A program made the translations under genes and the position numbers. The notes beneath the pieces are model-generated. The model worked only from the letters and a program-made list of their open reading frames with translations, searched no databases and was not told the DNA's origin. A DNA stretch of 34,351 nt from Bacteroidales bacterium (GTDB lineage: Bacteria; Bacteroidota; Bacteroidia; Bacteroidales; UBA932), in assembly GCA_016284265.1 (NCBI GenBank), contig JAEEOM010000106.1, positions 1 through 34,351 on the forward strand. The letters are read 5' to 3'. Below are positions 3,921-34,351 of the stretch, in pieces. Numbering within the stretch: the stretch's first letter is position 1; each line of letters begins with the position of its first letter.

Positions 3921-5310
3921 GGACCGTCACGGGTTTGGAGAGTTGGATATCTTCGGGAAGGATCTTGATGCCGACAAAGTCGCCCTTGTCCCAGATGTCG
4001 TTGGTATCGACCCAGATGTTCTCGCCTGCTTCGGTCTTCACAGTCAGGTGGTAGTGGTCGCCCATGTAGAGAATGAAGACCACGTTGCCGGTCAGGTCGG
4101 CTTCTTCCTCATGGTCGAGCAGGTCCACTTTCTCGAAACGGATGGTCGCTACGACCTCGTCGCCGGTCTGGAAACCGGTGGTGTCGCAGTTGAATTCCGT
4201 ATCGAGGAACTCGACCTTCCCTTCCCCGGTCACCTTGCCGGCGTAGGTATTGGCCTCTCGTTCTTTCTTCATCACCTGGATGTCGTCGGGATCGATATAG
4301 AGCATCACCTCGCTGCCTACCGGATAAGGATCGTAGTCCTGGATCATGAGTTCATAACCGGTATCGGTGTCAACCCACATCTCGTAGTGTACACCCTTGA
4401 AGATGCAGGAATTGACTTTCGCTTTGAACTGGCATTTGGCCGGATCGGTGGTAAAATAAATGTCTTCGGGACGAACGACCACATCGACTTTTACGTCTTC
4501 GCCGAAACCTTCGTCCACGCAGTCGAACTCGTGTTTGATGAACGCCACGCGCCGGTCGCGGATCATGCGGCCTTTGAGGATGTTGCTTTCCCCGATGAAA
4601 TCAGCCACAAAAGCGTTGACGGGTTCGTTGTAGATGTCGATGGGCGTGCCGATCTGCTGGATCTTGCCCTCATTCATCACGACAATGGTGTCGGAGAGCG
4701 TCAGGGCCTCTTCCTGGTCGTGCGTCACGTAGATGAAGGTAATGCCCAATTTCTTGTGCATCTCTTTCAACTCGATCTGCATGTCCTTGCGCATTTTCAA
4801 GTCAAGTGCGGCGAGCGGCTCGTCGAGGAGCAGCACGCGCGGCTGGTTGATCAACGCCCGGGCGATAGCCACGCGCTGCTGCTGACCCCCGGAGAGACTT
4901 TCCACGTCGCGGTCTTCATAGTCCGACATGCTCACAAGCTTAAGCACTTTCTTCACGCGTTTCTCGATCTCGTCTTCCGGCACTTTCTGGAGCTTGAGAC
5001 CGAAGGCGACGTTGTCATACACGTCGAGGTGCGGGAAGAGTGCATAGCGCTGGAAAACCGTGTTGAGTTTGCGCTGGTACGGCGGTACGTCATTGATGAC
5101 CTTGCCTTCCATGGTGACAGTACCCTCGTCGGGCTTGCCGAAGCCGGCAATCAGGCGCAGCATGGTGGTTTTGCCGCAGCCCGAAGGGCCGAGGAAAGTC
5201 ATGAATTCGCCGCGTTTCACATAGAAAGAGATGTCATCGAGCACCTTCTTGTCACCGAACGACTTGGAGATATGGTCCAGCCGGATGATGATGTCTTTTT
5301 CTTCTGCCAT
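3913..5310 (-). CDS. potA: Spermidine/putrescine ABC transporter ATP-binding protein with extended TOBE-like C-terminus
   Basis: Walker [10 protein letters not shown], signature [15 protein letters not shown], Walker [14 protein letters not shown]; ~465 aa with two TOBE-like segments. Confidence 0.92.
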
Positions 5311-24185: not shown

Positions 24186-29906
<5,721 letters not shown>

Positions 29907-29926
<20 letters not shown>

Positions 29927-30824
29927 TTACCGGTTCGGCTGGCTGGTTGCCGACTATCTGAACGAAAATCCGTGTGCTGTCACGCCGGATTTGCTGCGCA
30001 GCGTGCTTCCTGAAGACGCTGATGCGGCAACCGAACAGGTAGTTTATGCAGCGCTGCTCGGCGGATTGTTAGGGCTGGATCCAACGACTTCGGAAGAAGA
30101 CTGTTTCCTGGAAGATCGTTATCTGCGTCCCGGATTGCAGCGTCTTGAGATTACGCCATGGCGGGAGAATCCTTATTATCAACAGATTCTTTTTTCGCAG
30201 GACGGCGTTGGCGGCAGGAACGGCTGGGCGCTCGCCTGGCAGGAATACCAGCCCTACGAATTGTTTCTGCGTGATGATTTGATCCTCACTGACGATTTAC
30301 GGCAGATTCCAGCACTCGGCTATTTTCCGGATTCGTTCCGCTATCCTTCCGTACTACAGGACGGCCGCGAGTGGATGTCCATCAAGCCCAGTGAAATCGC
30401 CAGTTCCCAGGCCGCCATTGATGCTGCCGCGGGGCGTGTAGTCACCTTCGGCCTCGGTCTCGGCTACTTCGCCTTTATGGCGGCACGCAAGCCGGAGGTG
30501 TCATCCGTAACGGTGGTCGAACGGGATCCGTCCGTCATTGCCCTATTCAGCGAGCACATTCTTCCTCAGATTCCTGATAAAGATAAGATAACTGTTATAC
30601 AGGCAGATGCATTTGATTATCTCGAGCATCAGATGAGCAAGTGCCCGCCCGATTTCGTCTTCATGGATATCTGGCACGACATCGCTGACGGCACGCCGCT
30701 CTACGTGCGCGCCCGGCTTTACGAAACCCGTTTTCCCCATACCCGTTTCATGTATTGGATCGAGCGCTCTCTCCGCTGCGCGCTCGTCGATGAACTCACA
30801 CAACGCGCCGAATCTGCCTTATGA
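29907..30824 (+). CDS. Class I SAM-dependent methyltransferase (spermidine synthase-like Rossmann domain)
   Basis: VVTFGLGLGYFAFMAARKPEVSSVTVVERDPSVIALF and PPDFVFMDIWHD; start at MDIRSL overlaps the antiporter stop. Confidence 0.72.
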
Positions 30825-32518
30825 TCGCATACCTGTTCACTTTGCTTTCCTTGGTCGTTCCAAGGTTGGTCGACCTTCCCGATTCGGCTCTTCGCATGAG
30901 CGCTACGGAAATCACGAATGTGCAATACGAGGCTTTTGATCCCGCGCATGAGCGGACCTTCTCCCTGGGAGACGACGATGCGGTCGTGATGGTATCCTGG
31001 CATGAAGCGCGCGCCTATTGTGTCTGGCTCTCCAAGCAGACCGGGCGCCGGTTTCGCCTCCCCACCGAAGCAGAGTGGGAACTCGCATGCCGCGCCGGCA
31101 CGACAACCGCCTATCATACGGGAGATCAGTTCCCGGAAGCACAGTGGAAAGCCCAGCGGAACAACCGGTATAAAGAACCTGTATCCCTGACGGTTGCACA
31201 GTTCGCGCCCAACGCGTGGGGCCTGTATGACATGCATGGAAATGTCGAGGAATGGTGCCTCGATCCTTGGGATGAAACCGGCGCGTTCCGCGTGACGCGC
31301 GGGGGCAGTCATAACATGGAACTTCGTTACTTGCGCAGTGACAGCCGCAGCGCTGCCATGCCGGACGATCGCTCCGTCCTGCGGGGATTCAGGATTGTGG
31401 AGGACGTTGCTGTTCGGGTAGCTGAACCCGTTTTTATGACACCGCAACCTTATGTGCTGCCGCCAGCCGATTCGTTGACACCGTTCTATGCACACAATCA
31501 CCAGCCGGCAGTGGCTGCCCTCGCGGGCGGTGACCTGCTCGCCATCTGGTTTTCCTGCGAGGCAGAAGCCGGCCGTGAGATGGTCGTGCTGCAGTCTCGT
31601 TTCCACCAGGGTGTCTGGTCGCCTGCCCGGCTTTTCTTCAAAGTACCCGAACGGAACATGACAGGCAGTGCGTTGCTTCGGCTCGATGACGGTACCCTGC
31701 TGCACTTCAACGGTGTCGGTGATGCAGGTGAATGGCGCGACCTGGCGCTGGTCTTGCGCCGGAGCCTCGACGGTGGCCTGTCGTGGAGCCTCCCACAGAT
31801 GGTCGGGGCGACGCATGGGCCTCGACATCAGGTCATTGCGGGCCCTATTGTTACGGGTGACGGATGCATCCTGCTCTGCTGTGATGCGGGGCCGGGCGGA
31901 GAAGACGGCACGGCACTGCATGTCTCCGCAGACGGCGGTCTCACCTGGAAAGATACAGGCAGTACCTTAGCCGGTATTCATGCCGGTATCGTCGAACTGA
32001 AGGACGGAACGCTGATGGCATTGGGACGCGGCAACGCCATCGACGGTCGCATGCCTTGCAGCCGCAGCACTGACGGCGGTCATTCCTGGTCGTTCAGCGC
32101 CTCGCCGTTCCCACCGATCGGAAGCGGCCAGCGACTGGTCTTGAAAAGGCTCGCAGAAGGACCGCTCCTACTCTGTTCGTTCGGCCCGAACGGTCTTTTC
32201 GTTGCACTTTCGTATGATGAAGGTCAGTCGTGGCCCGTCCGCAAACTACTGACTGATAACAGCCTTTTGACCGGCAGCAAAAAGTCGGCAGATGACAACA
32301 TGGCGACCGACGGCACTCTTCATACCGGGGGCAACGTGCAGAAGGATGGCAGCTCTCGAACATTCGACGGCGGAGCATGGACCGGTTCTTTCACGATGGA
32401 TGCCACGCATGCGGAACCGCGCGGCTACCTCGCTGTCACACAGACGCCCGACGGCCTCATCCACCTCCTCTCCAGCCGCCTCCATTATCGCTTCAACCTC
32501 CAGTGGATTGAGCAGTAA
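30821..32518 (+). CDS. SUMF1/FGE-fold domain fused to BNR (sialidase-like) repeat domain
   Basis: TEITNVQYEAF, RLPTEAEWELACRAGT, NAWGLYDMHGNVEEWCLD, TRGGSHNMELRYLRSDSRSA, then Asp-box repeats SLDGGLSWS, SADGGLTWK, STDGGHSWS, SYDEGQSWP. Confidence 0.88.
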   Translation: MIAYLFTLLSLVVPRLVDLPDSALRMSATEITNVQYEAFDPAHERTFSLGDDDAVVMVSWHEARAYCVWLSKQTGRRFRLPTEAEWELACRAGTTTAYHTGDQFPEAQWKAQRNNRYKEPVSLTVAQFAPNAWGLYDMHGNVEEWCLDPWDETGAFRVTRGGSHNMELRYLRSDSRSAAMPDDRSVLRGFRIVEDVAVRVAEPVFMTPQPYVLPPADSLTPFYAHNHQPAVAALAGGDLLAIWFSCEAEAGREMVVLQSRFHQGVWSPARLFFKVPERNMTGSALLRLDDGTLLHFNGVGDAGEWRDLALVLRRSLDGGLSWSLPQMVGATHGPRHQVIAGPIVTGDGCILLCCDAGPGGEDGTALHVSADGGLTWKDTGSTLAGIHAGIVELKDGTLMALGRGNAIDGRMPCSRSTDGGHSWSFSASPFPPIGSGQRLVLKRLAEGPLLLCSFGPNGLFVALSYDEGQSWPVRKLLTDNSLLTGSKKSADDNMATDGTLHTGGNVQKDGSSRTFDGGAWTGSFTMDATHAEPRGYLAVTQTPDGLIHLLSSRLHYRFNLQWIEQ

Positions 32519-32892: not shown

Positions 32893-33147
32893 GGTGAGCA
32901 AGTTGGAGGCCTCTGCTCACCATGACTTTCTTTCACTCCCTCCGGTGAGCGAAGCGACTGTCTCAGCTCACGGTGGCCTTCTTTCACTGCCTCCGGTGAG
33001 CGAAACGGCCTCTCCGGCACACGGCGGCCTTCTTTCGGCGCCTCCGGTGAGTCAAACGACCATCTCTACTCACGGCGCCCCTCTTTCACACACATCGGTG
33101 TGTAAAACGGCCTCTCCTACTCACCACTCGGGATAGCGGCTTTCACC
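32893..33147. repeat. Tandem array of five 51-bp units, each with an inverted repeat (GGTGAGC-N15-GCTCACC)
   Basis: Left arms start at 32893, 32944, 32995, 33046, 33097; right arms at 32915, 32966, 33017, 33068, 33119: exact 51-bp period and 22-nt arm offset in all five. Confidence 0.92.
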
Positions 33148-33154
33148 CATCGAG

Positions 33155-33353
33155 TGGCAGATTTTCCCCATCGAGCGGCCGGTTGGGGGTTTCCTCGGCC
33201 AGGTCCGGGAGCCCCTCCACAGGCTCCTGCGGACCTGGACGGGAGAAAACCCGCTTCAGCAACGACCTGCCAATCACCTCAATCACTCCCTTCAGGCCGC
33301 AACTGACTATCAACGCGGTTATCCTTGACAGCGTGCTGGCAGGAGATAACCGC
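33155..33353. repeat. Left arm of a ~1.1-kb inverted-repeat structure (hairpin A 33187-33252 + hairpin B1 33315-33353)
   Basis: Colinear with the reverse complement of 34038-34263 across two hairpins and the ~60-nt spacer between them. Confidence 0.85.
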
Positions 33354-33447
33354 TCTCTGCTACCGTTGAATCACCCCGTCGGCGAAGCCATCAACAAGTC
33401 CGGACAGGATCTTTGCGGCGCCACTCCGGGCAAGGTCCCCTATAGAC

Positions 33448-33477
33448 CACCCCATGGGACCAGAAGTCCGAGGGGTG
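33448..33477. repeat. Hairpin CACCCC-atg-GGACcagaaGTCC-ga-GGGGTG
   Basis: 6-bp outer stem, internal loop, 4-bp inner stem. Confidence 0.55.
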
Positions 33478-33505
33478 CCACGCCACGAATCAGAGCTATC
33501 TGCCT

Positions 33506-33655
33506 ATGGTGGAAAAGGACCATTGTGTGGAATTGGTTTCCGCCAAAGTGTCCGCACTCATGGTCGTCCCGATGATGGATTTCGCATATCAGCTGCAGAC
33601 ACTGGCTTTCCAAAGGTGGGTCTACTCAGGCGAAGCCAAAGAGCACGAAGTCTAG
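33506..33655 (+). CDS. Possible 49-aa small protein (MVEKDHCVELVSAKVSALMVVPMMDFAYQLQTLAFQRWVYSGEAKEHEV)
   Basis: ATG-to-TAG ORF with protein-like composition inside the inverted-repeat structure; below the ORF-track length cutoff. Confidence 0.25.
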   Translation: MVEKDHCVELVSAKVSALMVVPMMDFAYQLQTLAFQRWVYSGEAKEHEV

Positions 33656-33688
33656 GGCCGGCCTGCTGCGGACACTTGGGTTGGCTGG

Positions 33689-33999
33689 CGCGAGCCCGGT
33701 GATTCGCTATTCTGTCCTTGTCTGACCGACTCTTCTCGGGCTCGCGTTTGTACATCTCGTCTGTATACCCCGTGTTTGTACACATTGTGTCCATCTCGAG
33801 CCGGATCATCCTTTGTCCTGCCACCGCCGGTTTGACTTCTCCCCGGCTCGTGCCAGACGCATCTGCCCGTCCCGAGCCGGATTATTCACCGATCTATCTA
33901 TGGCTGGCTGCCTTCTGCCGGGCTTGGGCAGGTTTATGAAAAGCCCAAGCCCGTTGTCTCGTGGTCTGACCATCGTCGAGTGATACTGAATTGGGCTCG
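33689..33999. repeat. Four stem pairs with exactly 38-nt loops (CGAGCCSG ... CSGGCTCG)
   Basis: Arm starts 33691/33737, 33797/33843, 33873/33919, 33946/33992: 46-nt offset in all four. Confidence 0.8.
33919..33953. repeat. Perfect 11-bp hairpin CGGGCTTGGGC-N13-GCCCAAGCCCG
   Basis: Direct reading; joins the third right arm and fourth left arm of the 46-nt-offset array. Confidence 0.85.
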
Positions 34000-34037
34000 G
34001 AAGCGACTGATGTTTTGAGCGTCGTCTATGGCGTAGG

Positions 34038-34263
34038 GCGGTTATCTCCTGCCAGCGCAACGGGCCCCGGAGTCCCGGGGCCGGGCCCAGCGCTGTCAAG
34101 GATAACCGCGTAATTTGTCAGTGGCTGTTTGCGAGGGCGATTAACTAGTCAGGCCAATCTTGGCTGATGCGGTTATCTCCCGTCCGGGCCCGCAGGAGCC
34201 TGAGGAGGGGCTCCCGGGCCCGTCCGAGGATAACCGTTCGGCCAAAAGGGGGCAATCAGTCAC
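34038..34263. repeat. Right arm of the ~1.1-kb inverted-repeat structure (hairpin B2 34038-34109 + hairpin C 34170-34236)
   Basis: Reverse complement is colinear with 33155-33353; B2 contains an additional GC-rich core relative to B1. Confidence 0.85.
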
Positions 34264-34351
34264 GTACCCAAACGAAATCAATCGGTCGCGAGCTCGAAAG
34301 ATGTCTATTCGTCTCGAGCCCGAAATGGGTCTGTCAGTTGTGATCCCGAGA

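Follow-up and report, generated by a model that had tools for sequence, protein, structure and literature searches.

REP elements and REP-associated tyrosine transposases (RAYTs) are known chiefly from Proteobacteria, and a GTAG-type foot is a hallmark of canonical REPs. To our knowledge, how a RAYT chooses and multiplies its hairpins is an open question. TnpA_REP cleaves and rejoins single-stranded DNA at REP hairpins (PMC8266576, Corneloup/Ton-Hoang group 2021), and a separate REP family belongs to each of these transposases (PMC6006769, Quentin et al. 2018). The REPs of P. fluorescens SBW25 form tandem arrays and favor spacings of 71 and 110 bp (PMC3116915, Bertels and Rainey 2011). Subclass 2.6 of the TnpA_Y1 proteins, from Bacteroidetes, comprises proteins of ~179 aa with a YIH[QN]NP motif and is associated with ‘atypical secondary structures’ (PMC6006769).

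In the window, by which we mean the whole 34,351-nt stretch of Bacteroidales DNA that was analysed, we find an array of hairpins at a pitch of 51 bp. It is very probably a REP/BIME-like array, whose hairpins would be substrates of a cognate RAYT encoded elsewhere in the same genome (G000), on contig C160. Like REP/BIME elements and REPtrons (for example, those of E. coli), the family to which the array belongs consists of short palindromes in many intergenic copies and tandem clusters, with a transposase gene flanked by copies and one hairpin family per transposase. Its palindromes, 29 nt long with 6–7-bp arms, fall within the 20–40 nt of the broad REP/BIME description, which also includes dispersed intergenic copies and a flanked RAYT, both found here. 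In contrast to REP/BIME, the units are head-to-tail and lack a GTAG/GGAG foot, the transposase is ~320 aa long with a non-NP tyrosine motif, and a 51–52-nt pitch is constant across unrelated hairpin families. A search for a GTAG/GT[AG]G (or CGTC) foot at the hairpins found none, the consensus being CC[TC]TC/CTCC before and GCGGCC after the hairpin, and inspection by eye revealed no common foot in the other hairpin families.

Two further systems invite comparison. The SBW25 REPINs resemble the array family in having a preferred spacing within each REP group, tandem arrays and clusters adjoining RAYT genes, but they are inverted doublets whose spacing varies between REP groups, whereas a single pitch is shared here by many different hairpin spellings and tracks with the transposase clade. 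Subclass 2.6 shares the phylum, the HxH motif NH[LIV]H and flanking structures without a GTAG consensus; the ~320-aa family is set apart from it, by description, in having Y-x-NRN instead of YIH[QN]NP. Pitch as such is not new, because SBW25 REPs already have preferred spacings. In the open-access literature, we found no report of RAYTs in this genus or of a 51-bp pitch, and within that literature it seems new that the pitch stays constant between unrelated hairpins and is tied to the clade of the transposase. The window array is thus ordinary in kind and unusual in form.

The array is intergenic and starts 374 bp past the stop codon of the upstream gene (Table 1). Its units are direct repeats without a consistent reading frame, each containing an imperfect hairpin with arms GGTGAGC (unit positions 1–7) and GCTCACC (positions 23–29). 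The initial annotation placed five full units at 32893–33147, with an exact 51-bp period and a 22-nt arm offset. Period and offset are borne out by five steps from 32893 and by Tandem Repeats Finder (TRF; period 51, score 178, at 32928–33089), and all five hairpins are present; unit 5, however, is homologous in its hairpin only, so that the array ends at 33125 and positions 33126–33147 lie outside it. A covariance model matches units 1–4, which were part of its training set, with E-values of 1e-12 to 1e-16 and the unit-5 hairpin with an E-value of ~5e-4. These values, together with similar arrays elsewhere, place the array far above chance. In single-stranded form, its folding surpasses that of dinucleotide shuffles (z −2.9 as DNA, −2.8 as RNA). 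Upstream of the array, a 315-aa ORF (29877–30821, + strand) adjoins a Na/H exchanger–TrkA_C gene; it has no Pfam match, and its sequence suggests a methyltransferase-like protein.

Table 1. Coordinates of the hairpin array and neighbouring features in the window
Feature	Coordinates	Strand	Remarks
Gene upstream of array	30821..32518	+	FGE-sulfatase domain and BNR repeats (Pfam)
51-bp-pitch hairpin array	32893..33125	.	Five hairpins and four 22-nt linkers
Hairpin 1	32893..32921	.	GGTGAGC-N15-GCTCACC
Hairpin 2	32944..32972	.	
Hairpin 3	32995..33023	.	One arm mismatch
Hairpin 4	33046..33074	.	GTGAGT/ACTCAC
Alternative 6-bp hairpin	33088..33103	.	ACACAC-ATCG-GTGTGT, spanning unit 4/5 boundary
Hairpin 5	33097..33125	.	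Last; array homology stops here
Second dispersed repeat, ~1.2 kb	33130..34351	.	Directly 3' of array; contig ends within

The arms pair as originally described (GTGAGC/GCTCAC in units 1 and 2, GTGAGT/ACTCAC in unit 4, a single mismatch in each of units 3 and 5), and the alternative hairpin across the unit 4/5 boundary is likewise present. Across the units of the family, stems are better kept than loops and linkers, as had been proposed from the window, and the homologous arrays of relatives, where stem conservation was to be checked, keep both stem and pitch. What does not hold up is the reading of the compensatory change in unit 4 as a sign of selected pairing. In the stems of 36 distinct units, 92.6% of positions are paired compared with 92.4% in shuffles, 268 of 500 of which score as high. 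For 58 units, related copies included, there are 326 Watson–Crick pairs versus 316 in shuffles (25 of 2,000 as high). At the arm positions that vary in the family, 5/25 and 7/23, matched and unmatched combinations are as frequent as in shuffles, and arms are often mixed, for example GTGAGT with GCACAC. The single compensatory change is therefore weak evidence that proves nothing alone. The hairpins themselves are real, despite the lack of covariation above shuffles within the family; selection for a hairpin is indicated instead by palindromes at other RAYT loci, which are spelled differently yet are still palindromic.

The repeat is dispersed. G000, which holds the window on contig C69, comprises 2.4 Mb in 206 contigs, and the repeat occurs on at least 10 other contigs, frequently at their ends, for about a dozen loci in all; copies are intergenic at those loci where position was read. 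The consensus of 58 distinct units is GGTGAGCGAATCGGCCTCCTCTGCTCACGGCGGCCTTCTTTCACGGCCTTC, in which both arms are the best-kept part. When a 51-nt covariance model built from 36 units was used to scan 40 genomes of the genus, matches numbered 54 in G000, 51 in G063, 41 in G028, 17 in G013 and 7 in G015 (record JAFZAF010000057, a MAG of Bacteroidales from the omasum of water buffalo), with few or none in the remainder; the four genomes besides G000 represent other species. Strong arrays form inverted pairs 2.3–3 kb apart; some arrays are irregular, with a one-base slip at L010 and a 41-nt unit at L016. The alternative hairpin is nearly unchanged at array ends on contigs C28, C29, C94, C81 and C27, and thus has been inherited together with that array end. 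At two loci, L015 and L019, an array forms the 5' leader of mqnE, whose predicted ATG lies inside the last hairpin (5068–5096 and 2488–2516, respectively). Contigs C160 and C19 share an array and this gene start, as a duplication or strain variant.

Inspection of the sequence between paired arrays located the cognate RAYT. In G000, G063, G028 and G015, an inverted array pair encloses mqnE and a ~330-aa RAYT gene, and, where the contig extends far enough, glnS borders this segment at one end and a VOC/rnhA pair at the other. In G013, arrays lie on both sides of a RAYT relative with 54% identity. Array copies flank the RAYT at L015, L063, L064, L065 and L075. An exception is a fifth inverted pair, on G063:C4, between whose arrays lie genes for a porin and an M24 peptidase but no RAYT, which is unsurprising for elements also present at a distance from their transposase. 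The window array is not near any RAYT and is a non-autonomous member, distant from the gene on C160. The array-rich genomes are exactly the 5 of 40 that have RAYT members sharing 54% or more identity with the G015 protein, a co-occurrence whose p of 1.5e-6 presupposes independent genomes and so exaggerates the independence of these related genomes of one genus. The RAYT family itself is present in 31 of the 40 genomes and, elsewhere in the order, in 3 of 148 genomes, G000 included (E≤1e-10).

The assignment of the cognate RAYT rests on its protein family, because the protein alone matched no family in a Pfam search, and a scan of G000 with Y1_Tnp, which gave no match, misses the true RAYT gene. 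Residues H87, H89 and Y146 are invariant in all 27 aligned members at identities down to ~20%, and this HxH plus tyrosine of the ~320-aa family reads as an HUH/Y1 signature. Pfam Y1_Tnp matches 15 of the 27 members at E≤0.1 (best 7.8e-5), NCBIfam REP_Tyr_transpos matches four (best 6.7e-9), and the RAYT at L171, from another genus of the same taxonomic family, is above the Y1_Tnp cut-off. Against the PDB, the family profile matches HUH transposases best, 2xm3 at the top (E=0.004); alignment to short Y1 transposases is weak and confined to the HxH region (E 0.0019, probability 14%). The YxxxNP motif of class 2 RAYTs is absent, with YINRNG in the cognate clade and YxNRN in most of the 27, and a single-sequence AlphaFold2 model of the RAYT (pLDDT 31) was of no use. 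On these sequence grounds, we take the family to be HUH/tyrosine proteins related to RAYTs, of a divergent Bacteroidales type.

The same pitch recurs at RAYT paralogs whose hairpins are unrelated to those of the window. TRF detects 51-bp arrays on both sides at L124 (ATGGACGG...) and L133 (GCTCCC...), a 51-bp array at L134 and a 52-bp array at L111 (GGTGCAAA...); the L171 RAYT of the other genus has 52-bp arrays on both sides. Paralogs without arrays often have only two hairpins at the same spacing, with hairpin groups typically placed one upstream and one directly past the stop codon. In a scan of 131 RAYT flanks of 420 nt, a direct repeat is present at lag 51/52 in 49 and at lag 71/72 in 12, whereas seven other lag pairs give 1–4 of 131 each. 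Control segments yield 13 of 329 at lag 51/52 (Fisher p 4e-19); as the scan was designed after 51–52 examples had been seen and includes orthologs, such p-values are indicative. Many lag-repeated segments are palindromic above shuffles, with spellings unrelated between paralogs, and for dyads at RAYTs (n=45) the direct orientation is better in 25 and the inverted in 12. Identical ~80-nt hairpin elements occur at L115 and L117 (a RAYT on G000 C105 and its G033 ortholog), directly past the stop codons of the RAYT and of the upstream gene and in the same orientation. Other tandem repeats at RAYT loci have periods of 64 bp (L139, 1433–1642) and 284 bp (L143, 3246–4324).

Pitch also follows descent. 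In a tree comprising 64 RAYTs, clustering of the labels 51 and 52 is evident, with 0 of 500 shuffles as low; on one side, 34 of the 41 RAYTs are at 51–52, the other side having 71–72 or none, except for long-branch L171 (52); this is a quick tree, and branch support and near-copies limit its reading. A second clade has hairpin repeats at lag 71–72 (L151, L153, L155, L156, L157 and L161). The pitch class (51, 52 or 71–72) thus follows the RAYT clade, which is inheritance and not proof of an enzyme-imposed pitch. A conserved GAAA in the linker, present in 14 of 32 cases on the RAYT-sense strand versus 3 on the opposite strand, is only a lead, as the list was hand-made and chosen post hoc.

How else could such arrays be read? 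A strict pitch over many loci would also suit iteron-like sites that a regulator or nucleoid protein binds as double-stranded DNA: five helical turns take up about 51 bp, which would place half-sites on one face of the helix, and half-sites are kept beyond the need for pairing, given that mixed GTGAGT/GCACAC arms persist. We consider this unlikely, as it leaves unexplained the RAYT gene between inverted arrays, the equal pitch of unrelated palindromes at other RAYTs and the 71–72 class; a double-strand site function could exist in addition to a RAYT role. The intergenic position of the arrays, 3' of genes at several loci, and their better-than-shuffled folding would fit a function in the transcript, where RNA hairpins would influence the upstream mRNA at its 3' end through stability, termination or attenuation, and known REPs can affect upstream mRNA 3' ends as a side effect. 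This reading is nevertheless quite improbable, since an Rfam search at the array returned no family at E<0.1, covariation is not above shuffles and the arrays to either side of one gene pair are oriented differently. The period also equals 17 codons, and an 80-aa ORF (32894–33136, + strand) is open in the window, but a protein of 17-residue repeats has next to no probability: this coding repeat is ruled out by broken frames in other arrays, with stops in all six frames at L009 and L014 and the slip and short unit of L010 and L016, and no Pfam family matches. The array was also rejected as a CRISPR array, as its linkers are themselves conserved and its repeats vary, unlike identical repeats with unique spacers.

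A last alternative concerns the ~1.2-kb repeat, which adjoins the array but is not a member of the array family as such. Full or partial copies, 81–91% identical, occur on a dozen G000 contigs, and the repeat, which is intergenic and has long inverted arms (33187–33356 and 34035–34235), also occurs in the genus outside G000, in seven genomes. On G063:C62 (L190, 1952–3685), two copies flank a PDDEXK_2 gene (E 1.5e-37), of the PD-(D/E)XK nuclease family transposases. As a candidate element of another G000 RAYT, the repeat had no match within RAYT loci. Several G000 array ends are near-identical jointly with the 1.2-kb module, as they would be were the array a passive tandem repeat that expanded and was carried along with it. 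Many arrays lack the module, however (L015, G028 and G063, and C160 and C19 in G000), and same-pitch hairpins attend RAYT genes genus-wide, making passive carriage very improbable.

We therefore favor the RAYT system, because dispersed hairpins with their own transposase and a co-diversified hairpin sequence match the known TnpA_REP arrangement. That the hairpins are cleaved and mobile, and that the pitch is due to the transposase, we infer from sequence; among the data there is no empty site or moved copy. The RAYT may recognize hairpins on an exposed strand, as during replication, and may cleave and rejoin DNA beside them, such that groups of hairpins would be copied or moved from one intergenic site to another. 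Arrays could then grow in whole 51-bp steps by local slippage or by unequal recombination. The transposase clade may set or keep the pitch, while hairpin sequence would turn over with each RAYT lineage. A more specific possibility, which we hold tentatively and at somewhat less than even confidence, is that each RAYT clade works on hairpins at a fixed center-to-center distance (51, 52 or 71–72 nt). Sequence would drift freely and pitch could not, because, in strand transfer, the enzyme would engage two adjacent hairpins simultaneously (or a phased array).

For this group of bacteria, the array family accounts for a repeat at which metagenome assemblies break. More broadly, one genus with dozens of RAYT paralogs is a natural experiment that separates the geometry, which would be what is read, from the sequence, which is not kept, and the question of two hairpins or phasing becomes directly testable.
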